Of a DNA stretch of 64,000 nucleotides, positions 12,564 through 55,200 are shown piece by piece. The first letter of the stretch is position 1, and every line of letters begins with the position of its first letter. The translations under genes and the position numbers were made by a program. Under the pieces are notes generated by a model. It searched no databases. It had not been told where the DNA came from and saw nothing but the letters and a program-made list of their open reading frames with translations. This DNA comes from Desulfosporosinus youngiae DSM 17734 (GTDB taxonomy: Bacteria; Bacillota; Desulfitobacteriia; Desulfitobacteriales; Desulfitobacteriaceae), in NCBI RefSeq assembly GCF_000244895.1, contig NZ_CM001441.1, positions 4,492,198 to 4,556,197 of the forward strand, written 5' to 3'.

Positions 12564-12620
12564 TTATTTTTAGCAACCTTTTTGTTGTTTAATAAAATTT
12601 AATGAATGGCAGGCGAAGCT

Positions 12621-14855
12621 ATGAATAAAAAATCAGGGGCAATCTATACTGACGTCAAAAAATGTGTCGATGAAGTTATTCAATACGTTGGTAAGGATAT
12701 AGTCTTTACCATGACCCTAGCCTTAGGCAAACCTGTACTCTTTATGAATGAACTCTACCGCCGGGCAAAAGAAGACCCTGAAATAAGGCTTAGAGTCATC
12801 ACCGCTCTCACCCTTGAAAAGCCTAAAGGTCACAGCGACCTGGAAAAGCGATTTTTAGGCCCTCTGTCAGATAGGATCTTTGCCGGTGTTCCGGAATTCG
12901 ATTTTATGCTTGATTTCAGAGCCGGCAAACTCTCTAAAAATGTTGAAGTGCTTGAATTCTTCTGTAAAGCGGGAGGATATCTTTCCTTCCCCGAAGCCCA
13001 ACAAAATCATTTAGCCACCAACTACACCCATGCCAATCGTGATGCTGAGGCCTTGGGAGCTAATGTTTTTGGTCAGTTGATTGGTTATCAGGAAATCAAT
13101 GGAAGAACAATGTACTCAATGGGATGTAATCCGGATGTCTGTCTTGAGGCTTGTAAAAACTTTAAAGAGTTAAGAGCCCAGGGAAAAAAAGTTGCTATCA
13201 TAGGAGAGGCAAACAAAAACATGCCCTTTATGTATGGAGATGCCGTTGTAGAGGCGGATACTTATGACATTATTCTTCAAGGGTCACAATATGATTATGA
13301 ATTGTTCTGCCCTCCTAAAGATCCCGTTGCCCTGAGTGATCACATGATCGGAATCAATGTCAGCACCTTGATCAAAGACGGGGGCACCATACAGGTAGGA
13401 ATCGGCGCTTTGGGCGATGCTATTGTATCAGGACTTATTCTGCGTAATGAACATAACGATTTATATCAAGAAATCTTGGAAAAGTCCGGTATCATGAAGC
13501 GCTATGAAAAACTAATCGCCGCCTGGGGAGATACAGGAGTTTTTGAGAAAGGACTGTATGGCTCCTCTGAAATGTTTGTTGATGCCTTCATGCAAATGTA
13601 TAAAAGTAAAATTCTAAAACGAAAAGTCTTTGAAAGCATCCCCTTAATGAAACTTATTAATGAAGGAAGACTCGCGCCAGATAACATTCCTTTAGACATC
13701 ATAGATCAACTTATTGAAATGAAAGCAATTCATTCCAAACTAAGCGAAGAAGACTTCACATTTCTTACTGAATCTGGAATCTTAAAAAAGGGACTCTCCT
13801 ATGAATCAGGCTGCATTCTGGATGGAGGAACAAAATACTCCGGGGATATGAACAATGAACAAAATCTCCTGGAGATTCGAAAGTTGCTTGGCAAAGAGCT
13901 GCTGGGCGGTCAGGTTATCCTTGGTGCTTTCTTTGTCGGCCCAAAAGCTTTTTATCAAGCTCTCAATGACATGAGCGAAGAAGAACGAAAACTCTTTGGT
14001 ATGTCCGGCGTGCAAAAGGTTAATCAGCTTTATGGCGGAGAAGAGCTAAGAACCCTGCAGCGGAAAGACGCGAGATTTGTTAATACCGGAATGGTAGCCA
14101 GTGTTCTAGGCTCGATTGCTTCTGATCAGCTTGAGGATGGCCGGATTATCAGCGGAATTGGCGGTCAGTATAATTTCGTGGCTATGGGGCACGCTCTGCC
14201 GGATGCCCGGGTTATCATAATGATTAAAAGCACAAAAGGTTCCGGTAAAACCCTTAAGTCTAATATTGTGTTCAGCTATGGTCATTGCTCTATACCCAAA
14301 CATCTGAGAGATATCATTGTTACAGAGTATGGGATTGCCGATGTTCGCAGCAAGCCAGAAAAGCAAGTTATCGCTGAAATCATCAACGTCGCTGATTCCC
14401 GATTTCAAAAACAGCTCTTGGATCAGGCAAAAAAAGCGGGTAAAATACCTTTAGACTATGAGATCCCAGAAGAATACCGGCATAATTACCCGGAAAAGAT
14501 CACTTCTCTGCTAAAACCCTATCAACAAACCCACGGAGTTTTCCGACCCTTTCCTTTCGGAACAGATTTGACGGAGATTGAAATTGCTCTGGGGGGAGCT
14601 TTGAAGGGTTTGAAGAGGCTCAGCACTGGCAACCGTCTTAAGATGGTTACAGGGTTGCTGCAGGAATTTCTTAGACCGATCCCAGAATCTGCTTATCCCT
14701 ACATGGAACGATTAAACCTTCTCGCGCCGTCGTCTATCCAAGAAAGAATCACGCGAAAACTCGTCGTATTCGCTTTAAGGAACCATAACCTTCTCAAGTC
14801 GCCTCCTCCTCAAGGAGCGGTTTTAAATCGGGTCTCGGATAAACACTCAGTTTAA
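12621..14855 (+). CDS. long acetyl-CoA hydrolase/transferase family protein, copy 1
   Basis: A 744-aa protein, much longer than the usual 430-550 aa of acetyl-CoA hydrolase/CoA-transferases. The N-terminal catalytic fold is marked by NVSTLIKDGGTIQVGIGALG at about residues 250-270; GSSEMFVDAF (about 314) probably carries the catalytic glutamate. The C-terminal domain shows ARFVNTGMVASVLGSIASDQ, SGIGGQYNFVAMGHALP and VTEYGIADVRSKPE. The first 200 residues and an extra segment near 340-430 are additional. It probably hydrolyses acyl-CoA or moves CoA between acids; the acyl chain is unknown. ATG 12621 follows GGCAGGCG; the upstream ATG 12606 lacks a site. It aligns along its whole length with the copy at 25088. 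Confidence 0.85.
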   Translation: MNKKSGAIYTDVKKCVDEVIQYVGKDIVFTMTLALGKPVLFMNELYRRAKEDPEIRLRVITALTLEKPKGHSDLEKRFLGPLSDRIFAGVPEFDFMLDFRAGKLSKNVEVLEFFCKAGGYLSFPEAQQNHLATNYTHANRDAEALGANVFGQLIGYQEINGRTMYSMGCNPDVCLEACKNFKELRAQGKKVAIIGEANKNMPFMYGDAVVEADTYDIILQGSQYDYELFCPPKDPVALSDHMIGINVSTLIKDGGTIQVGIGALGDAIVSGLILRNEHNDLYQEILEKSGIMKRYEKLIAAWGDTGVFEKGLYGSSEMFVDAFMQMYKSKILKRKVFESIPLMKLINEGRLAPDNIPLDIIDQLIEMKAIHSKLSEEDFTFLTESGILKKGLSYESGCILDGGTKYSGDMNNEQNLLEIRKLLGKELLGGQVILGAFFVGPKAFYQALNDMSEEERKLFGMSGVQKVNQLYGGEELRTLQRKDARFVNTGMVASVLGSIASDQLEDGRIISGIGGQYNFVAMGHALPDARVIIMIKSTKGSGKTLKSNIVFSYGHCSIPKHLRDIIVTEYGIADVRSKPEKQVIAEIINVADSRFQKQLLDQAKKAGKIPLDYEIPEEYRHNYPEKITSLLKPYQQTHGVFRPFPFGTDLTEIEIALGGALKGLKRLSTGNRLKMVTGLLQEFLRPIPESAYPYMERLNLLAPSSIQERITRKLVVFALRNHNLLKSPPPQGAVLNRVSDKHSV

Positions 14856-14885: not shown

Positions 14886-14914
14886 TACCTGCGAAGATAC
14901 TGTCTTCGCAGGTA
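14886..14914 (+). terminator. palindrome serving as possible terminator; also a repeat module
   Basis: TACCTGCGAAGA (14886-14897) and TCTTCGCAGGTA (14903-14914) form a 12-bp stem, followed on the plus strand by TTAAGTTTATTTT. The core CGAAGATACTGTCTTCG is one of four copies of a short palindrome found near the dispersed repeats of this window. Confidence 0.5.
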
Positions 14915-15035
14915 TTAAGTTTATTTTCAGGATAGCTGCCCATGCCGCTGACGCGGCACCAGCATGAGGATGAAAAGGAGCTGTGTCCGGGTCGGGCAGC
15001 TTCGTCCACATCCGTGCAAGATTAGTTAATTCGTG

Positions 15036-15085
15036 CGAAGACAGTGTCTGCGAGAAGGGTAATCCGTGCGAAGACAGTGTCTTCG
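15036..15085. repeat. two copies of a 17-bp palindromic module
   Basis: CGAAGACAGTGTCTGCG (15036-15052) and CGAAGACAGTGTCTTCG (15069-15085) are spaced 33 bp start to start. Related copies lie at 14892-14908 and 48404-48420. Both sit in a block that is absent from repeat copy B. Confidence 0.7.
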
Positions 15086-15128
15086 TGTACCGCAGCATTC
15101 CGAGGCTCGCCCACTCGCCGGCGCGGGA

Positions 15129-15230
15129 GCTACCTTCAGCGGATAAGTATTCTTTGGAGATAGCCGCTTCGGCGAAACTGTATCCTACGCCGGTGAGGAT
15201 TCCTTAAGGGATCACAGCTTCGGCGATACT
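15129..15230 (-). repeat. two diverged 51-bp tandem units inside repeat copy A
   Basis: Positions 15129-15179 and 15180-15230 are adjacent 51-bp units. Both contain GCTTCGGCGA near their 3' ends (plus strand) and similar TATCC and AGCGG/CGCCGG motifs; about two thirds of positions look identical by eye. Neither is in copy B. Confidence 0.55.
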
Positions 15231-15442
15231 CTCCGCCGGAGACTATCGTACCGGACACTTTCGTGCCAAACCTCCGGGTAATACCTGATGTGAACCCGTG
15301 GCTCCGTCTCCCCGCACCGTCTTGTGGGCTTTTATCGCCTCTCCATGCAATGGGTTCGCTTCTGTGGGCGAAGCTGCCCTGCTTGCGGGTCTGGGGATTC
15401 TCCTGCAGGTCTATCATCGTGTCTTCAGTTTTTCAGAGTATT

Positions 15443-15490
15443 AAAATAAGCTTCCTCTCAATTAGCATTGCTAAGAGGAAGCTTATTTTT
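15443..15490. terminator. long bidirectional hairpin terminator
   Basis: A 16-bp stem pairs 15443-15458 with 15474-15489; it starts AAAATAAGCTTCC and ends GGAAGCTTATTTT. A shorter inner stem, TTAGC/GCTAA, lies in its loop. T runs on both strands suit the end of the minus-strand usp operon and read-through from repeat copy A. Confidence 0.65.
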
Positions 15491-15511
15491 GATCGTTATG
15501 CTCATCAAGGA

Positions 15512-15543
15512 TTCAACTCCCACTTATAGCTGTGGGAGTTGAA
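15512..15543. repeat. 12-bp inverted repeat
   Basis: TTCAACTCCCAC (15512-15523) pairs with GTGGGAGTTGAA (15532-15543), 8-nt loop. It lacks a T tract. Such hairpins resemble subterminal structures of IS200/IS605-type elements, but no transposase or ORF remnant is present. Confidence 0.5.
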
Positions 15544-15570
15544 CGATAGATAATGCTTGGAGCGTTTTGA

Positions 15571-16029
15571 TTATTGGGGACCAATATAAATAGGGCATTT
15601 CACCTTTTTGCTTAAAGAATTGAGATTATATCGAAGACCTGCAGTGGCCGCCGGAGCGGTAGCATGAGGGTTTGGCAAAACCAGCAAGGCGGTTTCCTGT
15701 TCAGCGGTCAGTTCTACAATGACTTTCTCTGTTTTCCCGACCTTTATCTCAGTCTCGACTTGTCCGCCCTTCTCCTTGACCTTTTCTGCAACCTCAGCCA
15801 GTACATCTTCAGAATGCTTATGAAGACCATCCTCGAACCAGTGAAAAAATTTCATTCGCGTCGAAGACGTATTGATCCATTCATCCCCGAGAAAGTTTTT
15901 CCACCCTTCATCTAAAATGAAGACTGCTCGCAAAGGCTGCTTGAGACCCAGGGACAGCTCGGTCGCCATTTGCACGGCTGCATCTGCCGAAGGTGAGCCA
16001 TCGGTAATCAATAGAATTTGACCGTTCAT
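15571..16029 (-). CDS. universal stress protein (UspA family)
   Basis: A 152-aa protein with the UspA start ILLITDGSPSADAAVQMATE and a C-terminal nucleotide-binding-like segment ending LSKKVKCPIYIGPQ. The usual ATP-binding G-x2-G-x9-G-S/T motif is replaced by LPNPHATAPAATAGLRYNLN, so nucleotide binding is uncertain. It is the last gene of a three-gene operon after a YeiH-family permease and a 37-aa membrane protein. This suggests it helps signal or protect in the same physiological condition as the permease. Confidence 0.85.
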   Translation of the reverse strand: MNGQILLITDGSPSADAAVQMATELSLGLKQPLRAVFILDEGWKNFLGDEWINTSSTRMKFFHWFEDGLHKHSEDVLAEVAEKVKEKGGQVETEIKVGKTEKVIVELTAEQETALLVLPNPHATAPAATAGLRYNLNSLSKKVKCPIYIGPQ

Positions 16030-16046
16030 TGGAAACCCCTTTCTTA

Positions 16047-16160
16047 CTAAAAAATCAAAACTAGAATCATTACAAGGGCTGCCCCAAAAATAGCTACTAA
16101 ATCCTCATGTTTATCATTACTAAATAGGGATAATTGCTTTTCTTCTTTTTTCTCTGACAT
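16047..16160 (-). CDS. 37-residue membrane protein in the yeiH operon
   Basis: A small ORF between the YeiH permease and the stress protein. The product starts MSEKKEEKQLSLFSNDKHED (charged, about 20 residues) and ends LVAIFGAALVMILVLIF (one hydrophobic helix), then TAG. GGAGGTAATGAT is placed ideally before the ATG at 16158-16160. The acidic/basic head and single helix suggest a small inner-membrane partner, possibly a regulatory or stabilising subunit of the permease. I do not recognise a named family. Confidence 0.7.
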   Translation of the reverse strand: MSEKKEEKQLSLFSNDKHEDLVAIFGAALVMILVLIF

Positions 16161-16203
16161 ATCATTACCTCCTTAGATTATAACCCTTTAATAGAAACTC
16201 TAA

Positions 16204-17316
16204 TTAAAAGAGCCATAGAACCACGATTAAGGAAAGTGCAGCCTTCAAAAAGCCTGCTACAGAGCCGATAACCAGCGGGGTTCCTCCTGCTTTTCTCATT
16301 TCGGCAAAGGAAATTTGCAAACCTAAGCCAGTAAGACCGATGGAGAAGAACCAACCATAAATTTCACGAAATGCTTTCAGATCTGCGGAAACAGGATTTG
16401 TAGGGCCGAAAGCACCAAAGGACGTTAATGTAACCGTTGCGATAAAACCAAGAACGAATAAAGGAAACTTGCTAAAGAAGGTTTTCCCTGCATTAGCCGT
16501 TGTATCTACGGTTTTGTCATCAGACATACGAGCATAAAGAATCGTGATTAATAGAACGACCAGGGGCAGGAACACAACACGGGTCAAGTTGTAAATCTCT
16601 CCCACCTTTAAACTGATGGAAGGAACATCGGCAGTACCGGGGTCAAAGGCCAGGGCTGCAGCTAATACCTGCCCGGAGTTTAAGATACCTGTGCCAGCCC
16701 ACATTCCGAACTGCTCAGGGGTTAATCCTAATAAGTGACCAAGAATAGGAAAGGTAAATAAACAAACGATACCAAAGGAAAGAATTGTGGCAATGGAGTA
16801 GGCAATGTCTTCCCCTCGGGCCTTAACAGCCGGAGCAACTGCCACGATAGCGGAAACACCGCATACACCGGCACCGGCGGCCAGGCAAGCTGCGGAACCG
16901 GGATGCATATTATATTTCTTACCTAGCCACATCGTAAAAATAATTGTTGAAAACATAAAGGTGGCAATGAGTAAGACAGACGTCGAACCCAATGTAGCCA
17001 ATTCGGTTAAGCTATAAAGCGATCCAAGCAGGATTACACCCATCTTAATAAAAATACGGGATGTTTTTACACCGGCCTGAGCCCAAGAAGGAATTCCAAT
17101 GGTATTTCGAATCACCATACCAATGATAATAACAATGATAACGTGATTGATTTTCAATACATTGCCCAAAAAGTTGGAGTTGGTTTTTATCCACCCCTCT
17201 ATACCGGTCCACTCACCACCGAATGTTTTTGTACCCATGGTTAGCAAGGCAATAATAAACATAAATAGAAGTCCGGGGATAACTTTAGCCCATTTACTAG
17301 CTGTACTCTCGTTCAC
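16204..17316 (-). CDS. YeiH-family permease (putative sulfate exporter), copy 1
   Basis: A 370-aa very hydrophobic protein with about 10-11 membrane helices, of the conserved hypothetical UPF0324/YeiH family annotated as putative sulfate exporters. Landmarks are NVLKINHVIIVIIIGMVIRN, GSAACLAAGAGVCGVSAIVA, the helix break AVKARGEDIAYSIATI, and GWFFSIGLTGLGLQIS. GTG start at 17316, with AAAGGAGG upstream. A minus-strand sigma-54-like promoter lies 117 bp upstream. It is followed by the 37-aa protein and the stress protein. The substrate is not demonstrated; sulfite, sulfate or related organic sulfonates are the usual suggestions. Confidence 0.85.
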   Translation of the reverse strand: MNESTASKWAKVIPGLLFMFIIALLTMGTKTFGGEWTGIEGWIKTNSNFLGNVLKINHVIIVIIIGMVIRNTIGIPSWAQAGVKTSRIFIKMGVILLGSLYSLTELATLGSTSVLLIATFMFSTIIFTMWLGKKYNMHPGSAACLAAGAGVCGVSAIVAVAPAVKARGEDIAYSIATILSFGIVCLFTFPILGHLLGLTPEQFGMWAGTGILNSGQVLAAALAFDPGTADVPSISLKVGEIYNLTRVVFLPLVVLLITILYARMSDDKTVDTTANAGKTFFSKFPLFVLGFIATVTLTSFGAFGPTNPVSADLKAFREIYGWFFSIGLTGLGLQISFAEMRKAGGTPLVIGSVAGFLKAALSLIVVLWLF

Positions 17317-17432
17317 AAAAATGCCTCCTTTAAATTTTCGTTCTCTTTCTTATTCTTGACTAAACATTTTCACTTTAACAAAACACCCTCTTTCCATTTT
17401 AATTAATTGTAACTTCTTTCACTAAATTTCAT

Positions 17433-17448
17433 TGCAAGTCTTATACCA
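17433..17448 (-). promoter_or_regulatory. predicted sigma-54 promoter of the yeiH operon
   Basis: The minus strand reads TGGTATAAGACTTGCA. The invariant GG and GC are separated by exactly 10 bp, and TTGCA is a perfect -12 element; the -24 element TGGTAT differs from TGGCAC at two positions. It points to the GTG of the YeiH gene, and the adjacent upstream operon encodes a sigma-54 activator. Confidence 0.55.
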
Positions 17449-17621
17449 TTTTTTCATAAGTACTATTGAAAAATTTTATAATTCCACTTACAACTGCTTC
17501 GCACCTTGCCTTATCTCAGTGATACTATTCATTTTTCAACTTGAAACTTCGTCACAGAAGCTGAGTCTGGGTATTTATTCGACATTTTAGAACGTAAAAT
17601 TTTGTTTTCATGTTATATAGG

Positions 17622-17646
17622 AAAAACGACTCGAAGAGTCGTTTTT
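17622..17646. terminator. terminator of the two-component operon
   Basis: AAAAACGACTC (17622-17632), GAA loop, GAGTCGTTTTT (17636-17646). T runs on both strands. It separates the regulator gene from the downstream yeiH promoter. Confidence 0.8.
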
Positions 17647-17695
17647 TAGGTCAATAATTATCCTTATTTATCACCTATTTATCAGTTCACACTCG

Positions 17696-17737
17696 TGCCA
17701 AGATGTCACCATGACATTATGTCATGACATTGTGTCA
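17696..17737 (-). promoter_or_regulatory. three 13-bp sites, candidate activator-binding (UAS) array
   Basis: TGCCAAGATGTCA (17696-17708), TGACATTATGTCA (17712-17724) and TGACATTGTGTCA (17725-17737) share the pattern TGaCAttaTGTCA; the middle one is a perfect palindrome. They lie about 250 bp upstream of the sigma-54 promoter, a normal enhancer distance, and overlap the stop codon and last ten codons of the regulator gene. Confidence 0.5.
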
Positions 17738-19160
17738 CTTCATTGCTAGCATACGATTCTATTTTGCGATATAAGTTTCGTACGCTGATGCCAAGTAATT
17801 TTGCCGCCTGGGCTTTATTTCCCTCGACTAATTTGAGAGCGGAAAGAATGTATAGTCTTTCCACCTCTTCAAGCTTAGGATTACCCTGGGTCTTTTGAAT
17901 TTGAATAAAGGTTTTCACAAAATCCGAGTCGCATACCTTTTCTTGTTCAATCTGATCTCTCTCTTGTTTTAAGTCCTCCCGGTATTTCTCAGGCCATATA
18001 TCTTGAGGATGAATTACATTACCTGTCGCCAAAATCTGACCACGTTTAATTAAATGCGAAAGTTCTCGAATATTCCCCGGAAAATCATAGTCTAACAACA
18101 TTTCTTTAGATTTCTCAGATAGCACATACTTATCGAAACCATCTTCTTGATTGGCCGGGGATGTCTTGAGAAAATAATCTGCCAGAAGAAGGATATCGCT
18201 CTTACGTTGGCGCAGGGATGGAACGTCTAAAGAAATAGCATTTAGACGATAAAACAAATCTTGGCGAAACCGTTCCAGATTCATCTCATTCTGCAAATCC
18301 CGATTGGACGCCGCAACAATTCGCACATTAACCTGACGCAGCCGATTATCTCCAACACGTCTGAATTCCCCGGTTTCTAAAAATCGCAAGAGTTTAACTT
18401 GAATGGATAACGGCATTTCTCCGATCTCATCTAAAAACAGCGTCCCTTGATCTGCCATTTCAACAAGACCTATCTTTTTAGTTCCAGCTCCGGTAAAAGC
18501 ACCTTTTTCATGACCAAAAAGCTCACTCTCAAAGAGAGTCTCGGGAATTGCTCCGCAGTTTATTGGGATATAGGCACGGTCGGCACGCGGACTCCAAAGA
18601 TGCACCGCCCGGGCGATGAGTTCTTTCCCGCTCCCACTTTCTCCCTTAATAAGAGCAGTTTCATCCGTTTGAGCAACTTTCTTCGTAATAGCCAAAAGGC
18701 CTTTCAGTAAAGGACTTTCCCCGATAATCTCTAATCCAGGGGTTTGGCGGTGAAGAACTTCTCGAAGTCCTGTGTTTTCCACGAGCAGCTTGCGCTGCGC
18801 ACAGGCTTTTTGCAGGGTAATTTCCAATTCGGATAAATTACAAGGTTTCGTCAGGTAATCAAACGCGCCTAACTTCATCGCCTCAATTGCGGATTCGATC
18901 GTACCATGTCCGGTCAGCATAATAATTTGCACATCCGGTTGTTGAACTTTTATTTGTTCCAAGAAATCAAGTCCATTGCCATCAGGCAACTTTAGGTCTA
19001 ACAGCACCCCGTCGAAAAGATTTGCCCGCAAAAGAGCAAGCGCATCTTCGATCGTCCCTGTTTCGAGAACCTCATACCCTTTACGACTTAAACGTTTGCT
19101 AATGACGGAACGCAACTCAGCTTCATCATCCAGGATCAGGATTCGATGCTTATATATCAC
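17706..19160 (-). CDS. sigma-54-dependent response regulator (NtrC/AtoC type)
   Basis: A 484-aa activator with three domains. The receiver (about 5-120) has the phosphoacceptor Asp55 in GVLLDLKLPDG. The AAA+ sigma-54 interaction domain (about 140-370) has Walker A GESGSGKE, the sigma-54 contact GAFTGA, and Walker B FLDEIGEM. A Fis-type helix-turn-helix is at the C-terminus (GNKAQAAKLLGISVRNLYRK). GTG start with GGGGGG before it. It lies 3 bp after the histidine kinase gene and should be phosphorylated by it. The nearest sigma-54 promoter candidate is that of the yeiH operon directly downstream. Confidence 0.93.
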   Translation of the reverse strand: MIYKHRILILDDEAELRSVISKRLSRKGYEVLETGTIEDALALLRANLFDGVLLDLKLPDGNGLDFLEQIKVQQPDVQIIMLTGHGTIESAIEAMKLGAFDYLTKPCNLSELEITLQKACAQRKLLVENTGLREVLHRQTPGLEIIGESPLLKGLLAITKKVAQTDETALIKGESGSGKELIARAVHLWSPRADRAYIPINCGAIPETLFESELFGHEKGAFTGAGTKKIGLVEMADQGTLFLDEIGEMPLSIQVKLLRFLETGEFRRVGDNRLRQVNVRIVAASNRDLQNEMNLERFRQDLFYRLNAISLDVPSLRQRKSDILLLADYFLKTSPANQEDGFDKYVLSEKSKEMLLDYDFPGNIRELSHLIKRGQILATGNVIHPQDIWPEKYREDLKQERDQIEQEKVCDSDFVKTFIQIQKTQGNPKLEEVERLYILSALKLVEGNKAQAAKLLGISVRNLYRKIESYASNEVTQCHDIMSW

Positions 19161-19163
19161 TGT

Positions 19164-21296
19164 TTAACCCCCCTTATAAGCAGGCAACGCAATACTCACG
19201 ATAGTCCCCTTACCTTCTGTACTTTCTATACTTAATCGTCCATTCATACGTCGTACGATGCCGTAACTTACAAACAATCCAAGACCGGTCCCTTTGCCCA
19301 CAGGTTTCGTGGTAAAGAACGGATTCAAGACATACTTTAGTTCATTTTGAGGTATACCTTGACCATAGTCTTTTACAACAAAGTAAATACTCTGACCGCT
19401 GGGATAAGTCTCTATTTCAATTAGGGCATTAGCTGGGGAAGCATCTAAAGCATTTGATACTATATTTAAGACCACTTGCTGCCATTCATTTTCATTGCCC
19501 ATAATATATAGACCCGGATCCAGCCGCTTTTTAAGGGTTATATATCTTTGTTTCGCTTTATATTCTAAAAGCTTAATCATTTGAGAACTGGAAACCCCAA
19601 TATCCAGTAAATTATATTCATAGGTGCGTTTGCGTGAAAATTGCAAAAGACCATTTGTAATTTGTTTGCAGCGAACAATTTGCTCAGATGTAATTCGCAG
19701 ACTCTCCTTGATTTCGTCAATATCGACTTTATCCGGTTTTTCATTTAAGCAATCCAGCAAATCCTCACTGTAGGCTGAAACGATCGCCAGGGGATTATTG
19801 ATTTCATGGGCAATCCCTGATGCCAAAAGCCCTAAAGTAGCCATTTTATCTGTTTCGATAACTCTGGACTCCATCTCAACCTGTTGGGTGACATCTTCCA
19901 GTATGACGAGGTATTCCGCCCCTTCACTATTTCCACTGGGAATTTGATAGTGTAGCTGCCTGAGATATTTCCGTTCCCCGTTCAAATTAAAGGAGCTCAC
20001 ACGACCGCTTTCGAGGAGCAAACAATCAACGTCTTCTTCACTCTGCATAACGTCTTCACAGGAAAGATTTAAATAATTGTTCTCTCCAAACCATTTCGAA
20101 AAGGTCGGATTCCACCATATGATTTGCTTATGATAGTTTAACAAAACCATGCCTGCGCCAATGCCATCGACAACCGTTCTTAAAAGCTCCTTTTCTGATT
20201 TGATGTTTTGATTTTTTTCATCCAACATCGCCATAAGTTGTTTAAATGAGTAGGCCAGTCTACCGATTTCGTCTTGAGTTGAATGAGAAATATCTGCCTG
20301 TAAATCTCCTGTTGCCCTGATTTTTTGGACTTGAGCTTCAAGGTCTTCAATTGGCCGTACCAGCCTTAGTCCAAAGACAATGCTAAGCATTGTCACCACC
20401 GCAATGGTTAGGAATAAAACCCCCCCCAAGTTCCTCGCCAGCGCATAAATCGGTTCGTACGCTTCTTTAGCAGGTTGCTCAATAAAGACTCCCCAATTAG
20501 TTTTTTCCACACGAGCAAACAACCCAATAACCTTCTCTCCTTGTTCGCCTGTATACTCATTCGGGGGATCCTCACTATTTAAAAAACTACTTACTGCCGG
20601 ATTTTCTCTAATATCCTCCCGGCGCAAGACCCTGCTAAAATCGGTATGACCAATTAGGGAACCCTTTTCATCAACAAAAAAAACATAGCCTTTATGCCCT
20701 ATACGCGTATCTATATATTGGGTAATCATTAATTTCAAATCAGCTTTAGCCTGAAGATATCCGAGGGGTTCACGTGTCTGCGAATCCCTTATTCCTAAGG
20801 TAATATAAAATTGAGGCCGTCGGTCTTTAGAGAAAAAAATATCACTTACAACGTAGTATTCAGGTATTGTTTCCGGGCCAATGTAATCCACATTTTTAAG
20901 ATTAGCATTTGTTATGACTTCCCGCCTGGAGACTTGAACCAAAATCTTGTGGTTTTTATCCAAAATCTTAATATCCTCTAAGTAAGGTTCCTGACGCAAT
21001 ACGATATTCAGGATCCCCTCTTGTTCTTTATCCTTCCCTTTGATTAGGGCTGAAGAATTTACATCGGTAAGATTAGACAAACTTTCTACAATATTCGTAA
21101 TTGAAACCTGGAGCTTTGTGGCAATGAGTGTAGCCTTTTGTAAGTTTTGTTCTCTAATACTTTCTTTAAACTTGTACGTTACCGTATTAAAGGTAGTCAG
21201 GGAGATAAACACCATCGGAATAATTGACATTAAGATTCCAAAAACTAACACTCTAATTTTAATATGCTGCTTCCAGGGCGTCTTTCCCGCTTTCAA
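19164..21296 (-). CDS. sensor histidine kinase (Cache-HAMP-PAS)
   Basis: A 710-aa membrane kinase. A first membrane helix (about 12-35) is followed by an extracellular Cache sensor region (about 40-280), a second helix (about 287-307), HAMP, a PAS domain (about 370-480), HisKA with ASGIAHEINNPLAIVSAYSE (His near 497), and HATPase with NIVSNALDAS, DYGQGIPQNE and GKGTGLGLFVSYG. TTG start overlaps the stop of the preceding gene (TTGA), behind AAGGAGG. The extracellular Cache domain plus the binding protein encoded just upstream suggests that a small molecule, perhaps an organic acid or sulfur compound, is sensed outside the cell. Confidence 0.93.
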   Translation of the reverse strand: MKAGKTPWKQHIKIRVLVFGILMSIIPMVFISLTTFNTVTYKFKESIREQNLQKATLIATKLQVSITNIVESLSNLTDVNSSALIKGKDKEQEGILNIVLRQEPYLEDIKILDKNHKILVQVSRREVITNANLKNVDYIGPETIPEYYVVSDIFFSKDRRPQFYITLGIRDSQTREPLGYLQAKADLKLMITQYIDTRIGHKGYVFFVDEKGSLIGHTDFSRVLRREDIRENPAVSSFLNSEDPPNEYTGEQGEKVIGLFARVEKTNWGVFIEQPAKEAYEPIYALARNLGGVLFLTIAVVTMLSIVFGLRLVRPIEDLEAQVQKIRATGDLQADISHSTQDEIGRLAYSFKQLMAMLDEKNQNIKSEKELLRTVVDGIGAGMVLLNYHKQIIWWNPTFSKWFGENNYLNLSCEDVMQSEEDVDCLLLESGRVSSFNLNGERKYLRQLHYQIPSGNSEGAEYLVILEDVTQQVEMESRVIETDKMATLGLLASGIAHEINNPLAIVSAYSEDLLDCLNEKPDKVDIDEIKESLRITSEQIVRCKQITNGLLQFSRKRTYEYNLLDIGVSSSQMIKLLEYKAKQRYITLKKRLDPGLYIMGNENEWQQVVLNIVSNALDASPANALIEIETYPSGQSIYFVVKDYGQGIPQNELKYVLNPFFTTKPVGKGTGLGLFVSYGIVRRMNGRLSIESTEGKGTIVSIALPAYKGG

Positions 21297-22303
21297 TGAT
21301 AACCTCCTTGTCCAATCACTTCATCTGCGAAACCTAAATAAGCTTCTTCAAGAGAAATCCCTAATTTTCGAGCGACCTCTAGGTTAACCTTAAAACTTAG
21401 TTTTTCGGCTGTTTCAACAGGGATAGACTTAGGAGAATACCCAATTATGATTTTATGAACCATATGTGCGGTTTGAGCGCCTTGATTGTAATAAGACGTC
21501 CCGTAAGAGGCAATACATCCTCTCTCAATATCACTAGGGTAAACCCCAAAAACGGGCACACCCTTTAATAATGCATAGCTTGCTATCTCTTCTGTATGTG
21601 TTTCCAGAAAAGATCCCGGCATAATGAGAATAGCGTGGCTATTTTTGCTGATTTCATCAACAATTCCAGGAATATCTTGCTCGTTAGTTATGTCATACAT
21701 CTTATACCTGATATTCAATGCCTGAGCTGTCTGACTAAGACCCGGCTGAGAATCCTGAAAGTAAATTGTGCGCTGATCTCCCAGAACTGCGACCTCTTCA
21801 ACCTGAGGAATCAACCGTTTGAGCAGATCAAGTCTTTTCGAGATGAGTTCATAATGATAGTTATTGAGTCCTGTAACATTTGTTTCGGGGAAAACCTCGT
21901 TTTCTACCAAGCCAATGGCTATCGGAGAAAGTGTCCCCATAAAAATGATCGGCGGAGGATCGTTAAGCTTTGCTACTGTCTTTGCCAGAGAACGAGTCTC
22001 CCCCTCCCCGGAAGCAACTAAAACATTAAATTTCTTAGAGACTAATTTCTCCGCGAGCTGATCCATTTCCGTATAATCGTTTGGGGCAGTCATTACCTCA
22101 TAGACAACATCCTTACCCTCTTCATAATTTAAGTTCTTCAGTTCGTCCTTAAGCCCTTCAAACTTCTCCAAACGACCCTCATTCTGAGACAGAACTCCAA
22201 TTCTGATAACCTTCTCATCACCGATGGACACTTTACTCATATAAAAACCCGCTCCAATTAAGTATAATATATAAATTATATAAATAATACGTCCCAAATT
22301 CAA
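21293..22303 (-). CDS. periplasmic-binding-protein-like sensor partner (ABC_sub_bind type)
   Basis: A 336-aa protein of the ABC_sub_bind family: an N-terminal membrane anchor (about 6-23), then two-lobed binding-protein segments such as VIRIGVLSQNEGR, VLVASGEGETRSLA, PPIIFMGTLSPIAIGLVEN and GVPVFGVYPSDIERGCIASY. TTG start after GAGGCGC. No transporter permease is linked; it overlaps the kinase gene by 4 bp. In such three-gene sets the binding protein delivers a ligand to the kinase, so it is best read as the first component of a signalling system. Confidence 0.85.
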   Translation of the reverse strand: MNLGRIIYIIYILYLIGAGFYMSKVSIGDEKVIRIGVLSQNEGRLEKFEGLKDELKNLNYEEGKDVVYEVMTAPNDYTEMDQLAEKLVSKKFNVLVASGEGETRSLAKTVAKLNDPPPIIFMGTLSPIAIGLVENEVFPETNVTGLNNYHYELISKRLDLLKRLIPQVEEVAVLGDQRTIYFQDSQPGLSQTAQALNIRYKMYDITNEQDIPGIVDEISKNSHAILIMPGSFLETHTEEIASYALLKGVPVFGVYPSDIERGCIASYGTSYYNQGAQTAHMVHKIIIGYSPKSIPVETAEKLSFKVNLEVARKLGISLEEAYLGFADEVIGQGGYH

Positions 22304-24989: not shown

Positions 24990-25087
24990 GTTTCTCTTGA
25001 CGTTATTTGCTCTTAGGCCTAAGTAAATAACAATTAGTCTGTGATGCACTCATTTATCAATTTCTTAGATGGCAGGTGACTTTTCAA

Positions 25088-27316
25088 ATGAAAGAAACCT
25101 CAGGAATAATCTATGACGATGTAACCAAATGTGTCGATGAAGTTATTCGCTACATAGGGAAGGATATCACCTATGCTATGACCCTTGCCCTAGGCAAACC
25201 AGTTCATTTTATCAATGAGCTTTACAGTCGGGCCAAAAAGGATCCCGAGCTGAATCTTAAGATCATTACCGCTCTTTCTCTGGAAATACCTAAAGGCAAA
25301 TCTGAACTCGAACGACGCTTAATGGAACCTATTATGGATCGGGTTTTTGCCGGTGTCCCTGAATTTGACTATGTGATTGATTTCAGAGCAGGTACCCTTC
25401 CTAAAAATGTCGAAGTCTTTGAATTCTACTCTAAAGCAGGTTCTACTATCAATAATCCTGTAGCCCAGCAGCACCATTTGTCTTCTCACTACACACATGT
25501 GGTTCGAGATGCTATAGCTCTCGGAACAAACGTCTTTGGCGAGCTTATAAGTTACCAGGAAATTAACGGTAAAACCATGTATTCAATGGCCTGTAATCCA
25601 GATATCTGTCTCGAAACTATACGATTATTTAAAGAGAAACAGGCCAAAGGTGAAAAAGTCCTTGTTATAGGGGAAGCAAACAAAAAGCTGCCCTTTATGT
25701 ATGGAGATGCTGTCGTAGAAGCAGAAACCTATGATATGATTCTTCAGGGCCCGCAATTTGACTACGAACTTTTCTGTCCTCCTAAAGATTCTGTTTCCCT
25801 AACTGATCATATGATTGGCATCAATGTCAGCCCCTTGATCAAAGACGGCGGCACAATCCAGGTCGGGATTGGCGCCCTGGGGGATGCAATCGTTTCGGGG
25901 CTTATTTTGCGTAATGAACATAATGCTGTATATCAGGAAATCTTGGAGAAGGCTGGTATTAAAAAGCGATATGACAAACTAATCTCCTGCTGGGGGGATA
26001 CCGGTACCTTTGAAGAAGGGCTTTACGGCTCATCCGAGATGTTTGTCGATGCCTTTATGCAGATGTACAAAAGCAAGATCCTCAAACGAAAAGTCTTTGA
26101 CAGCATCCCCCTTATGCAATTGATCAATGCCGGAAAGCTCGACGCCGATAACATTCCTCCGGACATCATAGATCAACTGATCGGGATGAAAGCAGTGCAT
26201 AGAAAACTGAAGGCTAAGGACTTCGCTTTCCTCACGGAATTCGGAATCCTGAAAAAAGGCCTTTTCTATGAAAACTATACCATTTTTGATGGAGAGAAAC
26301 GTTATTCAGCCGATATGAATGATGAGAAAAACAGACTAGAAATCAGAAAACTGCTCGGAAAAGAACTCCTTAAGGGAACCGTAATCTTGGGAGCATTCTT
26401 CCTAGGTCCGAAAGCCTTCTATCAGGCCCTCAACAACATGAGTGAAGAAGAACGGCAAGTTTTCGCTATGTCCGGTGTGGAAAAGGTCAATCAGCTTTAT
26501 GGCGACGAGGAATTACGAACCTTACAACGAAAGGATGCCCGCTTCATTAATACCGGCATGGTTGCCAGCGTTTTTGGAGCCATTGCATCAGATCAACTTG
26601 AGAATGGTCAAGTTGTCAGCGGAATTGGCGGACAATATAACTTTGTGGCAATGGGCCATGTCCTGCCCGACGCTAGAATTATTATCATGATCAAAAGCAC
26701 AAGAGGATCGGGCAGGAGCCTTAAGTCCAACATAGTCTTTAACTACGGCCATTGTTCTATCCCTAAACATATGAGAGATATAGTAGTAACTGAGTATGGA
26801 ATTGCTGACATTCGAAGCAAACCAGAAAAAGAAGTTATTGCTGAAATGATAAACATCTCCGATTCCAGGTTTCAAAAGCAGTTAGTTGAGCAGGCAAAGA
26901 AAGCCGGAAAGCTTCCTCTGGATTATGAAATCCCGGAAGAGTATCGAAATAATTTACCGCAAAAAATCTCTGCCCTTCTTAAGCCCTATCAATCTCAAGG
27001 GCTCTTTCCTCAATTTCCCTTCGGTACGGAATTGCCAGAGGTTGACCTGACCCTAGTTAAAGCCTTGAAGGGCTTAAAAGGACTTGCTAAGGGAAATCGA
27101 CTTAAACTGGTCAAAGGAATGGCGCTGGAATTATTCAGACCAATTCCTGGAACAGCGGCCCAACACTACTTGGAAAGGATGAATCTTCTCCACCCTTCTT
27201 CTATCAATGAGAGAATCATGAGAAAGATTGTCGTCTTTGCCCTTAGAAACGCCAATGTCTTTCAATCGTCTGCTTCTCTTCCTCTGCAAGCATCATCCCG
27301 CGTAGTATCCAAGTAG
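25088..27316 (+). CDS. long acetyl-CoA hydrolase/transferase family protein, copy 2
   Basis: A 742-aa paralogue of the protein at 12621, aligned end to end and with the same key segments: NVSPLIKDGGTIQVGIGALG, GSSEMFVDAFMQMYKSKILK, SGIGGQYNFVAMGHVLP and VTEYGIADIRSKPE. It should likewise act on acyl-CoA or transfer CoA. The start is ATG 25088, about 11 nt after GGCAGG; an in-frame GTG at 25076 is inside the binding site. This copy has the perfect long operator and an additional FNR-type box, so its control is probably richer than that of copy 1. Confidence 0.85.
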   Translation: MKETSGIIYDDVTKCVDEVIRYIGKDITYAMTLALGKPVHFINELYSRAKKDPELNLKIITALSLEIPKGKSELERRLMEPIMDRVFAGVPEFDYVIDFRAGTLPKNVEVFEFYSKAGSTINNPVAQQHHLSSHYTHVVRDAIALGTNVFGELISYQEINGKTMYSMACNPDICLETIRLFKEKQAKGEKVLVIGEANKKLPFMYGDAVVEAETYDMILQGPQFDYELFCPPKDSVSLTDHMIGINVSPLIKDGGTIQVGIGALGDAIVSGLILRNEHNAVYQEILEKAGIKKRYDKLISCWGDTGTFEEGLYGSSEMFVDAFMQMYKSKILKRKVFDSIPLMQLINAGKLDADNIPPDIIDQLIGMKAVHRKLKAKDFAFLTEFGILKKGLFYENYTIFDGEKRYSADMNDEKNRLEIRKLLGKELLKGTVILGAFFLGPKAFYQALNNMSEEERQVFAMSGVEKVNQLYGDEELRTLQRKDARFINTGMVASVFGAIASDQLENGQVVSGIGGQYNFVAMGHVLPDARIIIMIKSTRGSGRSLKSNIVFNYGHCSIPKHMRDIVVTEYGIADIRSKPEKEVIAEMINISDSRFQKQLVEQAKKAGKLPLDYEIPEEYRNNLPQKISALLKPYQSQGLFPQFPFGTELPEVDLTLVKALKGLKGLAKGNRLKLVKGMALELFRPIPGTAAQHYLERMNLLHPSSINERIMRKIVVFALRNANVFQSSASLPLQASSRVVSK

Positions 27317-40159: not shown

Positions 40160-40544
40160 GATTAAATCCTCCTTTAAAATAAATAAACCCTTCGTCTCTG
40201 ATTGAGACGAAGGGTTAGTTCGCGGTACCACTCAAGTTGACAGCAAAAAAGCCGTCTTCTCTGCAAGATACGGGAGCAACGCGAGGTTCGAGGCACGATG
40301 TGCGAAGTTCAACTTTAAAATAACTTTACGGGTCGAACTACAGGCATCGAACATCGAGGTTCCGATATCTCCTTCCTTTTAACGGCGGAAGCTCCGTCCG
40401 AGCCTACTTTTATCATTTCGGTCGGCTACTCGAGGAAGAGTTCCAATTCCATACCATTACTGCCTTTCACCACCCGGCAGCTCTCTAAAAACAGCACTAG
40501 GAAATGTACTATTTCCTCTCATCGTCATTTTAACAGTTGTAAAT
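40160..40544 (-). promoter_or_regulatory. T-box leader of leuA (leucine, specifier CUC)
   Basis: Contains the T-box core GAGTGGTACCGCG on the minus strand (40221-40233) and a downstream 13-bp terminator stem starting AACCCTTCGTCTC (40186-40198 with 40204-40216) followed by TTTATTTATTTT. Stem I pairing GAGGAA/UUCCUC places the codon CUC at 40438-40440, immediately 5' of the pairing strand, where the specifier is expected. Uncharged leucyl-tRNA should favour the antiterminator. The middle of the leader is longer than usual and holds related GTTCGAGG-type repeats at 40283-40360. Confidence 0.9.
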
Positions 40545-48420: not shown

Positions 48421-48785
48421 CACGGGTTAGACCTTCTTGCAGTATAATAACGTAAGTTTTATACTTTCTGCCCTAAAAAAAGGAACCCGAAAGCTCCAAA
48501 ACAATCTGAAGAATCCCCAGACCCGCAAGCAGGGCAGCTTCTCCCACAGGAGCGAACTCATTGCATGGAGAGGCAATAAAAGCCCACAAACCGGTGCGGG
48601 GAAACGGAGCCACGGGTTCACATCAGGTATTACCCGGAGGTTTGGCGGAGTCCCGCGCCGGTGAGTGGGCGAGCCTCGGAGTGCTGAGTGAACGGATGTG
48701 GGAGAAGCTGCCCGACCCGAGGGACCTGGACCTATTTTCATTCATCAATGGTGCCGCACAGCGGCATGGGAGTCTGATAGTATAA
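48421..48785 (+). repeat. dispersed GC-rich repeat, copy B
   Basis: The longest copy without extra blocks, in plus sense. It starts GGGTTAGACCTTCTTGCAG and ends with the hairpin TGCCGC-ACA-GCGGCA and GGGAGTCTGATAGTA. Copies A (14935-15410, minus) and C (27317-27475 plus 29344-29392) match it. It is clearly richer in GC than flanking DNA. No convincing protein is encoded; overlapping ORFs on both strands are explained by the repeat. A stem CAGGGG/CCCCTG with a minus-strand T run follows at 48792-48807. Confidence 0.75.
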
Positions 48786-48928
48786 AAAAAACAGGGGTTG
48801 CCCCCTGCTTCCTGCAAATAGCTACAGCTTAACCTACATTAATTTAAAGTGCTAAGCTTTTCTGCCATAGTATATATTATTACAACAGTATTTTCAGGCT
48901 AAAGATACCTTTACGTGGAAATAACTAA

Positions 48929-49513: not shown

Positions 49514-50554
49514 CTACAGACCAAACCACAGGAGAGTAAAGAAAGAAACCGCTGATACTACGATCGAAGCAATGATCATGGCCCCAAGCGGACGCAGTGC
49601 CCGATTCCGCAAACTTGAAAGATGGACATTAAGGCCTAACCCAACCATAGCAGCTGCCAAAAGGAAAGAGGACACCTTGGAAATATCGTTGAGAACAACG
49701 TCAGGAATTGGCAGATACGTGCCTACTAAACTTGTCAACATGAATCCGGCTAAAAACCAGGGAAAGGGTGCGCTTTGCTTACCCTCCCCCTCTCCTTTGC
49801 GCTTCATCCAAAGAGAAAGAACGATACTTAAAGGGATCAGCAGGAATACTCTTCCCAGTTTGGACAACAATCCCATTGCCATCACATCCTGACCTGCCGG
49901 CATAGAAGCTGCCGCCACATGAGCGATCTCGTGTAAACTCATGCCACTCCATATCCCGTATTCAAGAGCGCTGATCGGTAAAAACGGCATGAGAAAGGTA
50001 TATGTCAAAGCAAAGATGGTTCCTATTAAGGCAATGATTCCCGCTCCAATCGCAGTATCTTCGTCATTTGCCTTTAAAATCGGGGATACCGCCGCAATCG
50101 CGGCAGCCCCACATACGCCCGTCCCAATTCCCAGCAGCAATGATAGGTTCAAATCTGCTTTAAACAACTTGGCCAATAACATAGTCGCTGTAATCGCAAT
50201 GATAATGATCATAGTATCATAAACAAGCAGCATCCCGCCTTTGTGAAGAACCATATCAATATTAAGTTTGAATCCATAGAGCACGATGGCAAAACGCATC
50301 AGAAAACGTGCGGAAAACTGAATTCCTTCACGAATACTCTCCGGATATCCAAGCACATTGCGATAAATTACAGCAATCAGAATAGCACTCAGCATAGCCC
50401 CGATTCGATTGATTCCCGGTAAGGCTCCCACCCATGTTCCGGTACCAGCGATAACCATAGTAAATAGAACTCCTAGTATAAAACGATTCCGCCTCTCTTG
50501 ATCTATCACTAAAGTCTGTTGAACACTTAAACTCTCCTTTGCCTGCAACCACAT
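49514..50554 (-). CDS. YeiH-family permease (putative sulfate exporter), copy 2
   Basis: A 346-aa membrane protein (start uncertain: ATG 50554 is 9 nt after GGGAGG, ATG 50560 only 3 nt) with about 10 helices. It has the family landmarks LNLSLLLGIGTGVCGAAAIA, SPILKANDEDTAIGAGIIAL and AMVGLGLNVHLSSLRNRALR. It is shorter than copy 1 and only moderately similar to it. A LysR regulator is divergently encoded, the arrangement seen for E. coli yeiH with yeiE, where the pair is linked to sulfite/sulfur stress. The transported substrate here is not known. Confidence 0.85.
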   Translation of the reverse strand: MWLQAKESLSVQQTLVIDQERRNRFILGVLFTMVIAGTGTWVGALPGINRIGAMLSAILIAVIYRNVLGYPESIREGIQFSARFLMRFAIVLYGFKLNIDMVLHKGGMLLVYDTMIIIIAITATMLLAKLFKADLNLSLLLGIGTGVCGAAAIAAVSPILKANDEDTAIGAGIIALIGTIFALTYTFLMPFLPISALEYGIWSGMSLHEIAHVAAASMPAGQDVMAMGLLSKLGRVFLLIPLSIVLSLWMKRKGEGEGKQSAPFPWFLAGFMLTSLVGTYLPIPDVVLNDISKVSSFLLAAAMVGLGLNVHLSSLRNRALRPLGAMIIASIVVSAVSFFTLLWFGL

Positions 50555-50792
50555 TTCCATAGGCCTCCCAATCATCTATTCTAGATTCTCACTTTCCAAA
50601 GAACTGAGCCTCTACAAAAACTATAGATTGATTAAGGTAAAGGAGCAATATAGGTTTCTTTAGGGTATCATCAGGAAAATATATTTTTTACTTCTTTCAA
50701 AGTTGTTATATCATTATGTCGAACCCTATCGAATTTTAAGTTATTAGAACCCAAAGTATTTGACCTAGTTTAAATGAACTTGAGGTGTAGTC

Positions 50793-51716
50793 ATGATTGC
50801 CGATCCTTTAAAAATCTTTGTAACAGTTGCTGAACTTAAGAATTTTTCCCGTGCAGCAGAAGAGCTCTTTCTATCCCAGCCCAGTGTCAGCTTACAAATC
50901 CGAAATTTAGAAAATGAACTTGGCTCAAAACTGATTAACCGTTCTCCGAAACACTTGGAGCTTACTCAATCAGGTGAACTTCTTTATGGAATAGCAAAGC
51001 AGATCCTGTTCCTGTATGACAAGGCAAAACAAGAAATCGAACAGTTGACAACCACTGTCACAGGCTCGCTGAAAGTGGGAGCAAGCTATACTATTGGCGA
51101 GTACATTCTACCCTTCGCGCTGGCTGAATTTTCCGATCAATTTCCAAATGTAGACATAGCAGCCTCGATCGGAAATACGGTAGAAATCACTCATGCGGTT
51201 CGATCTAATCATTTGGACCTTGCACTTGTCGAAGGGGAAGTCCATCACTCCGACCTCGATATCCAGCCTTTGATGGATGATGAGATTATTTTGGTAGTCC
51301 CTAACCAACATGCTTTGGCAAGACTTCCCATCGTCACTGCGGATCATCTTCAAGACCGGGTGTGGATTCTCAGAGAGACTGGTTCCGGGACTCGTGATTT
51401 CAGTGATAAGCTGATCAAGGATTGGAAAGTCAATGTAAAAAAATCTCATATCTTTGGCAGCAGTCAGGCTGTAAAGCAAGCGGTTATTGCTGGTTTGGGA
51501 ATTGCACTTGTCTCTGGCTGGATTGTACGAAAGGAATTAAAAGCAAAAGAATTAACGGCCATCCGAATAAAAGGCAAAAAACTAATTCGTACATTTTCAA
51601 TAATAAGGCCCAAGAATAGTGAAATGACCAAAGCCATGGGCATTTTTACAGAAAATTTGCTTTCACCTGACTTTATCTCTTCGCTTATGGATCATAATCC
51701 CTCCGTAATCAGTTAG
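50793..51716 (+). CDS. LysR-family regulator, divergent from yeiH copy 2
   Basis: A 307-aa regulator: N-terminal winged helix (about 5-60, FSRAAEELFLSQPSVSLQIR) and a C-terminal substrate-binding domain (about 90-295) with GSLKVGASYTIGEYILPFAL, VEGEVHHSDLDIQPLMDDEI and WILRETGSGTRDF. Members related to CysL/YeiE often act on sulfur metabolism genes. About 230 bp separate it from the permease and probably hold the shared operators. GAGGTG before the ATG. Confidence 0.88.
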   Translation: MIADPLKIFVTVAELKNFSRAAEELFLSQPSVSLQIRNLENELGSKLINRSPKHLELTQSGELLYGIAKQILFLYDKAKQEIEQLTTTVTGSLKVGASYTIGEYILPFALAEFSDQFPNVDIAASIGNTVEITHAVRSNHLDLALVEGEVHHSDLDIQPLMDDEIILVVPNQHALARLPIVTADHLQDRVWILRETGSGTRDFSDKLIKDWKVNVKKSHIFGSSQAVKQAVIAGLGIALVSGWIVRKELKAKELTAIRIKGKKLIRTFSIIRPKNSEMTKAMGIFTENLLSPDFISSLMDHNPSVIS

Positions 51717-55014: not shown

Positions 55015-55200
55015 GTTAAAGCAGACGAGCAGTCAGGTCTCCTGGCTTAGGTTCTTCGCCCATTGCCTCCTTCCCAAGTTTCCTCAGTGGATATGGCAAT
55101 AAGCTCCCCATTTACAGTGGCGGGACCGCGCCGGATTCACACCGGCTTCCCTGTCGAATTTTTCTTACACAGAAAAATTACTGGCTCGAAGTATTTACTT
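55015..55200 (-). promoter_or_regulatory. cobalamin (AdoCbl) riboswitch
   Basis: On the minus strand the conserved core GCCGGTGTGAATCCGGCGCG and CCCGCCACTG (55115-55149) and the B12 box AGCCAGGAGACCTGAC (55032-55047) are clear. High cobalamin should fold the aptamer and favour the downstream 24-bp terminator, reducing cobalt uptake. A further hairpin, AAGCCCTCC/GGAGGGCTT (54956-54980), lies between aptamer and terminator. Confidence 0.92.

Follow-up and report, generated by a model that had tools for sequence, protein, structure and literature searches.

A 37-amino-acid protein encoded directly behind a YeiH-type permease in Desulfosporosinus youngiae DSM 17734 is probably a dedicated one-helix partner of that permease, and would stand in for the first helix of a longer form of the same family. 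We call the permease YeiH-A. The genes lie in a stretch of 64,000 nucleotides (positions 4,492,198 to 4,556,197 of NZ_CM001441.1), which we refer to as the window. Coordinates are those of the window unless another locus is named. The core features are:

16204-17316, minus strand: YeiH-A permease (PF03601), 370 amino acids, GTG start
16167-16173, minus strand: AGGAGGT, ribosome binding site of the small ORF, read in the sequence
16047-16160, minus strand: one-helix protein of 37 amino acids, putative YeiH-A partner, 37 codons, ATG start
15571-16029, minus strand: Usp-domain protein, 152 amino acids, third gene of the presumed operon

An earlier note on this DNA had described a 37-codon ORF with a ribosome binding site between the permease and the Usp gene, and had placed all three genes in one operon. 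The ORF and its ribosome site are where the note put them, and the Usp gene lies outside the interval that it named (16047-17316). The small ORF begins 43 nt after the permease stop and ends 17 nt before the Usp gene, and there are no terminator-like sites on the minus strand across 15300-17750. The order of permease, small ORF, and Usp gene is identical in all six of the Desulfosporosinus genomes that carry the permease (one of the Usp genes is cut by a contig end). Because of the short gaps, the lack of terminator-like sites on this strand, and the constant gene order, the three genes fit a single operon. AGGAGG precedes the small ORF at all six loci, and the full AGGAGGT at five of them. 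Searching the D. youngiae genome with the small protein found a single copy, at 16047-16160.

The permease scores 195.7 bits against PF03601 (Cons_hypoth698; Pfam gathering cut-off of 24.5 bits), and the product of 15571-16029 scores 37.8 bits against the Usp family PF00582 (cut-off of 24). Against TIGR00698, which is the YeiH subfamily in NCBIfam, the permease has 118.5 bits, below the curated cut-off of 232.6. So the earlier name "YeiH permease" holds as far as PF03601 goes, but this protein is a relative of the curated subfamily and not a member of it, and we use "YeiH" loosely.

A second PF03601 permease (353 amino acids) is encoded elsewhere in the window, at 49514-50575 on the minus strand. 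It is divergent from a gene at 50793-51716 (plus strand) that we read as LysR-type from its sequence, an arrangement like that of the YeiE/YeiH sulfite module. Other features of the window include two related genes of the acetyl-CoA hydrolase/transferase type (12606-14855 and 25076-27316; same BLAST family, with a Pfam assignment for the first), a T-box leader at 40200-40531, and a cobalamin riboswitch at 55015-55196 (both on the minus strand). Also, alike chance ORFs at 14900-15450 and 48430-48830 suggest a dispersed repeat.

The small ORF is a gene, conserved and subject to purifying selection. We compared seven of its coding sequences, six from Desulfosporosinus and one from another class. 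Across the 21 pairs, there were 105, 24, and 272 differences at the first, second, and third codon positions, and dN/dS ranged from 0 to 0.12 (the zeros are pairs whose residues are identical or whose synonymous change is saturated). Given this codon-position bias and low dN/dS, together with the adjacency to the permease across orders, the ORF is more than a chance reading frame.

Members of this family, which we call A-small, have a charged and variable N-terminal part, a majority core of F-x-[TNS]-[ED]-[RK]-x-E-D-[YL]-x-A-[LI], and then a hydrophobic stretch that runs to the C-terminal end. The glutamate and aspartate columns of the core are invariant in the 44 distinct sequences, and ED is present in all 46 A-small entries. 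In the protein from the window, the motif is E-D-L rather than E-D-Y or E-D-W. Its charged N-terminal half leads into a single hydrophobic stretch that ends the protein, which agrees with the charged head and one membrane helix reported earlier. The earlier note had also recognized no named family, and this was borne out: the 37-amino-acid protein has no match in Pfam or NCBIfam at E <= 1. Thirteen members of the family gave weak and unrelated matches only (three in NCBIfam and one in Pfam; the best was to PcxA, with E = 0.012). The sole match in a search of PDB sequences (E = 0.77) was to an unrelated fusion.

The note had proposed a small transporter-associated subunit and had taken conservation of the ORF next to yeiH in relatives as the test of this idea. 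We ran this test, and the ORF is kept beside the permease across orders. Within the order, the small ORF was found in 6 of 73 genomes, all of them Desulfosporosinus (6 of the 29 in the genus), and the same six of 73 carry the permease at over 690 bits. In each of these six, the small ORF is directly downstream. A seventh permease match in the order (in G055; 32% identity) belongs to a different clade.

All of the genomes that we compared are from one phylum. In a sample of 398 genomes from this phylum, the permease query found nine more genomes at over 380 bits (53–58% identity), and the next match was at 268 bits. All nine have an ORF of 39–54 amino acids directly downstream of the permease. 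We built a profile (A1) from 13 small proteins of this type, and it matched at E <= 3.3e-15 in exactly the ten genomes that have YeiH-A above 380 bits (D. youngiae and the other nine). In twelve further genomes, the match was no better than E = 8e-4, and we take these to be chance.

Another class, to which one of these nine genomes belongs and which is represented by 113 genomes, contains 41 YeiH-A loci in 38 genomes. The A1 profile matched 37 of the 113, all of them among the 38 with YeiH-A. Nine of these 37 contributed to the profile and 28 did not; both the A profile and the filter for the B family described below were made from members, which eases the recovery of members. At 39 of the 41 loci, the small ORF is on the same strand and directly 3' of YeiH-A. 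At one exception (in G482; L137 and L138), what reads as an IS-like insert lies behind the permease and runs off the contig, and the small ORF sits behind the same insert sequence on another contig. In the other (G555), the contig ends within the permease. If the small protein is a subunit, it should be encoded with the permease across relatives, and this was found at 39 of 41 loci in this class and at 6 of 6 in the genus. This nearly one-to-one linkage supports the proposal of a transporter-associated subunit, which would physically associate with the permease.

Three genomes of this class (G481, G467, and G502) each have two copies of YeiH-A and two small proteins. One copy of the permease in each genome is 74–88% identical to the permease from the window, and the small protein of that copy has the Desulfosporosinus-like sequence S-L-F-[ST]-N-[ED]-[RK]-x-E-D-L. 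In the other pair, the small protein is of the common form T-E-R-x-E-D-Y in G481 and G502, and of a variant of that form in G467. In a phylogenetic tree, the three window-like copies, along with the single copy of G480 (68% identical), group with the permease from the window (100/97). The subtypes are matched within these genomes, and therefore the pairs of permease and small protein travel together and keep their match.

We also applied a common rule to all types of YeiH loci: an ORF of 28–70 amino acids with a hydrophobic stretch of 17 residues and ribosome-site letters, starting no more than 250 nt past the stop codon of the permease. A candidate with ED was found at 43 of 47 YeiH-A loci. 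The four failures are the insert in G482, the contig end in G555, and two loci (L094 and L133) that do have the small ORF, although the rule missed it. There was a candidate at all six loci of a paralogous permease, YeiH-B. As a control, just 1 of 21 loci of other short YeiH proteins had any candidate, and that one lacked the motif (one of the 21, L032, has just ~60 nt behind the permease). None of the three loci of long-form YeiH had a candidate. Since most short YeiH proteins are without a partner, the fold does not need one. Separately, at a locus in G501 (L099), the search reported two internal stops in the YeiH-A frame, and an intact small ORF lies behind it.

Outside of Desulfosporosinus, the nine loci all have a kinase, a LuxR-type regulator, and a PAS membrane protein near YeiH-A (families are by BLAST, with Pfam names from one locus). 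At six of these nine loci, YeiH-B lies ~6–11 kb from YeiH-A; it is 37–44% identical to the permease from the window. YeiH-B has a small protein of its own, with a core of K-x-R-[KR]-Q-D-[YLIW] followed by a helix. This second type (B-small) is beside YeiH-B at all six loci in these regions and at all 15 loci in the class, of which 14 were found by a filter that requires the motif and one (L177, with Q-D-I) was missed by it and added by eye. A profile built from six B-small proteins recovered those six in the phylum sample (E <= 6.1e-15). The next match (E = 7.6e-7; L187 in G427) resembles B-small and lies next to a YeiH that is shortened and decayed; a further four, with E of 0.006 or above, appear to be chance. 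The A-small and B-small profiles are similar to each other (P of 1.5e-4 or better, probability 51–67%). Also beside YeiH-B at all six loci is a protein of ~150–200 amino acids that has a single helix at its N-terminus (KKEKLVKWYGWI...), for instance at 10607-11074 of L043; the one member that we tried has no Pfam family.

In a tree of 67 permeases with a midpoint root, YeiH-A and YeiH-B form one group (100/99), the long forms form another (100/100), and the other short forms of YeiH lie outside of both. With this root, the group of A and B is not adjacent to the long forms.

PF03601 has forms with 9 and 11 helices, which differ by two extra helices at the N-terminus, and gains or losses of helices within the fold-type affect the N-terminal scaffold subdomain, according to the available part of PMC8396727. 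From their length and N-terminus, the long forms in our genomes probably correspond to the PSE_2 type of that study. We began with 24 candidate long forms, dropped two (L150 and L152) because the YeiH ORF is short or the N-terminus is different, and later added one from D. lacus (L012), for a total of 23. All of the first 22 begin with a charged stretch, then E-D-[WY]-[WF], and then a helix, and L012 adds one more. This resembles the small protein, with its charged stretch and E-D-[YL]. However, the helix of PSE_2 is part of the permease chain, while the helix here is encoded by a separate downstream gene, and PSE_2 has a second extra helix for which we saw no counterpart.

To score this feature, we used a script that locates the first hydrophobic stretch of a protein and requires [EQ]D[WYLF] at its head. 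The motif was found in 23 of 23 long YeiH proteins, in none of 197 other proteins, and in none of 44 permeases of the A, B, and other short types. (Five proteins with EDWWA or EDYWA were left out of the pool of other proteins; all five are long-form YeiH.) It was found in 43 of the 46 A-small entries, where the three misses have long upstream reading frames, and, by construction, in 14 of the 14 filtered B-small proteins. So a helix headed by Glu-Asp or Gln-Asp is common to the small proteins and the long forms.

Profile comparisons point to the same place. When aligned to the long form with HHalign, A-small fits best on the first helix and in register, but the match is weak (P = 0.0036, probability 9%); seven decoys had best P values of 0.028 to 0.58. 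B-small aligns to the same place, and again weakly (P = 0.016, probability 3%; decoys 0.052 to 0.47). With a plain HMM, just 2 of 22 long forms outscored the best unrelated protein for the A model. AlphaFold models, each from 7 sequences, had a mean pLDDT of 49.6 for long-form YeiH and 41.5 for a chain read through YeiH-A into the small ORF, both too low to be of use. Although the aligned segments are short and hydrophobic, the motif and the profile matches are suggestive of the small protein replacing the first of the two extra helices of the long form, and its helix may be homologous to the fused one. Because the tree does not place A and B beside the long forms, the E-D motif could instead be convergent.

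Alternatively, the small protein might be a regulator of YeiH-A instead of a structural part: it would bind conditionally and would inhibit, activate, or stabilize the permease, in the manner of one-helix regulators of other transporters, and the E-D motif would be convergent. Having its own gene and a very strong ribosome site could permit a different dose, and the profile match to the fused helix is weak, with A and B not close to the long forms in the tree. AcrZ, as far as the available account of it goes, is a precedent. Nevertheless, we think that a regulator is unlikely, as the near one-to-one linkage, the matched subtypes, and the parallel A and B pairs would be better explained by a constant partner, and the motif heads the first helix in none of the 197 other proteins.

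Two other explanations seem very improbable, and we rejected both. A leader or coupling peptide that merely aids the translation of Usp or marks a processed transcript would fit with the 17 nt before the Usp gene and with Usp being next at all six Desulfosporosinus loci, but the small ORF is conserved at the amino-acid level, and in the other clades compared Usp is not the next gene, yet 39 of 41 loci keep the ORF after the permease. A free membrane peptide (of the toxin or membrane-stress type) that rides along with the permease would account for the small size, the hydrophobic stretch, and the charged head of the peptide and for nothing more, whereas the A1 profile has no matches without YeiH-A across the 113 genomes and the subtype of the small protein matches that of the permease.

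As a dedicated partner of YeiH-A, the small protein would probably have its charged N-terminus in the cytoplasm, with one helix across the membrane. This helix would probably pack against the nine-helix permease, on the side of its N-terminal scaffold, and take the role of the first of the two extra helices of a PSE_2-type YeiH. The invariant Glu-Asp would lie at the membrane surface and could be a docking or gating contact. More tentatively, YeiH-A and YeiH-B might represent a third architecture of PF03601, in which the first N-terminal scaffold helix of the long form has a separate gene, with two paralogous pairs of permease and helix (A and B) whose partner specificity is kept within one genome; we give this slightly less than even odds.

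Upstream of the permease, all on the minus strand, are:

17433-17448, minus strand: sigma-54-like promoter site TGGTATAAGACTTGCA, upstream of the permease
17706-19160, minus strand: sigma-54-activator response regulator (by Pfam), the next gene upstream and the likely regulator of the operon
19164-21296, minus strand: dCache sensor histidine kinase (by Pfam), the likely partner of the regulator
21293-22303, minus strand: PF04392 ABC_sub_bind-type protein (by Pfam), beside the kinase

The pattern TGG[CT]A[CT]-N5-TTGC recurs in all six Desulfosporosinus genomes, once per stretch and upstream of YeiH-A on its strand (we searched 3.1–11.1 kb per genome, including 5 kb of the window). In five of the six, the site is at the same aligned place, and the spacer has a mean column identity of 63%. 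In D. lacus (L012), the site differs and is shifted. A looser pattern, with up to 2 mismatches, showed no excess over chance in the window (23 found versus 25.5 expected). We credit the site because the tighter pattern has this single occurrence, always upstream of YeiH-A. In Desulfosporosinus, the permease, the small protein, and Usp are probably co-produced from a sigma-54 promoter, which the two-component system encoded next to them would drive. In D. lacus, a long-form YeiH with an E-D-Y first helix (7029-8381 of L012, minus strand) is also encoded near the genes for YeiH-A, the small protein, and Usp, and its gene is adjoined by those for a kinase and a regulator of the sigma-54 type.

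What does YeiH-A transport? A recent study linked YeiH to sulfite resistance: in Salmonella, yeiH is needed for it, according to the available part of PMC12880088. The likeliest cargo of YeiH-A is sulfite or a related small sulfur anion, and the transporter would most likely export it. Among the 113 genomes of the class, dsrA is above its cut-off in 36 of the 38 with YeiH-A as compared to 39 of the 75 others (P = 1.9e-6, Fisher exact test, ignoring kinship). This association is weak because the contrast is mostly between families: f148 and f149 are mostly without both dsrA and YeiH-A.

Adjoining the permease are a dCache kinase and a sigma-54 regulator, and such a kinase and regulator are typical of organic-acid uptake systems. 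YeiH-A and its small protein could instead move a small organic acid, and the permease at L043-L045 is near genes that we read from their sequences as succinate dehydrogenase and malate dehydrogenase. Against this, dsrA is present in most of the genomes with YeiH-A, and the relative in Salmonella has a role under sulfite stress (PMC12880088, in the part available). Overall, we consider an organic acid to be somewhat unlikely, if a serious candidate.

There are precedents for tiny accessory proteins. CydX (37 amino acids) and AcrZ are described, in the accounts available to us, as one-helix accessory proteins of large membrane complexes, and KdpF is another. Like these, the 37-amino-acid protein has a single helix and is tied to one large membrane complex. 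Unlike these, its partner is a secondary transporter of PF03601, and they have no curated family in common. The Salmonella YeiE/YeiH module has a permease that is named for the same family (PMC12880088, available part), but the permease in the window is below the cut-off for TIGR00698, has other regulators beside it, and has a small gene behind it. The terms "small protein" and "subunit" do not appear in the available text of PMC12880088, nor does the word YeiH appear in the main text of a survey of small membrane proteins (PMC10903887). No small subunit of a PF03601 transporter was reported in the open literature that we searched.

These results add two families of small proteins, A and B. 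The ORF from the window and the 12 other members of the A alignment are without a convincing model in Pfam or NCBIfam. A tiny gene that follows the gene for a sulfur-type transporter through dozens of anaerobic bacteria suggests that one helix of this transporter is made as a separate part. If so, YeiH-A that is expressed alone may be an incomplete transporter. The matched pairs within one genome make it possible to swap partners. The one-helix partner, which stands alone in some clades and is apparently part of the permease in others, also offers a way to study the role of the N-terminal scaffold helix.
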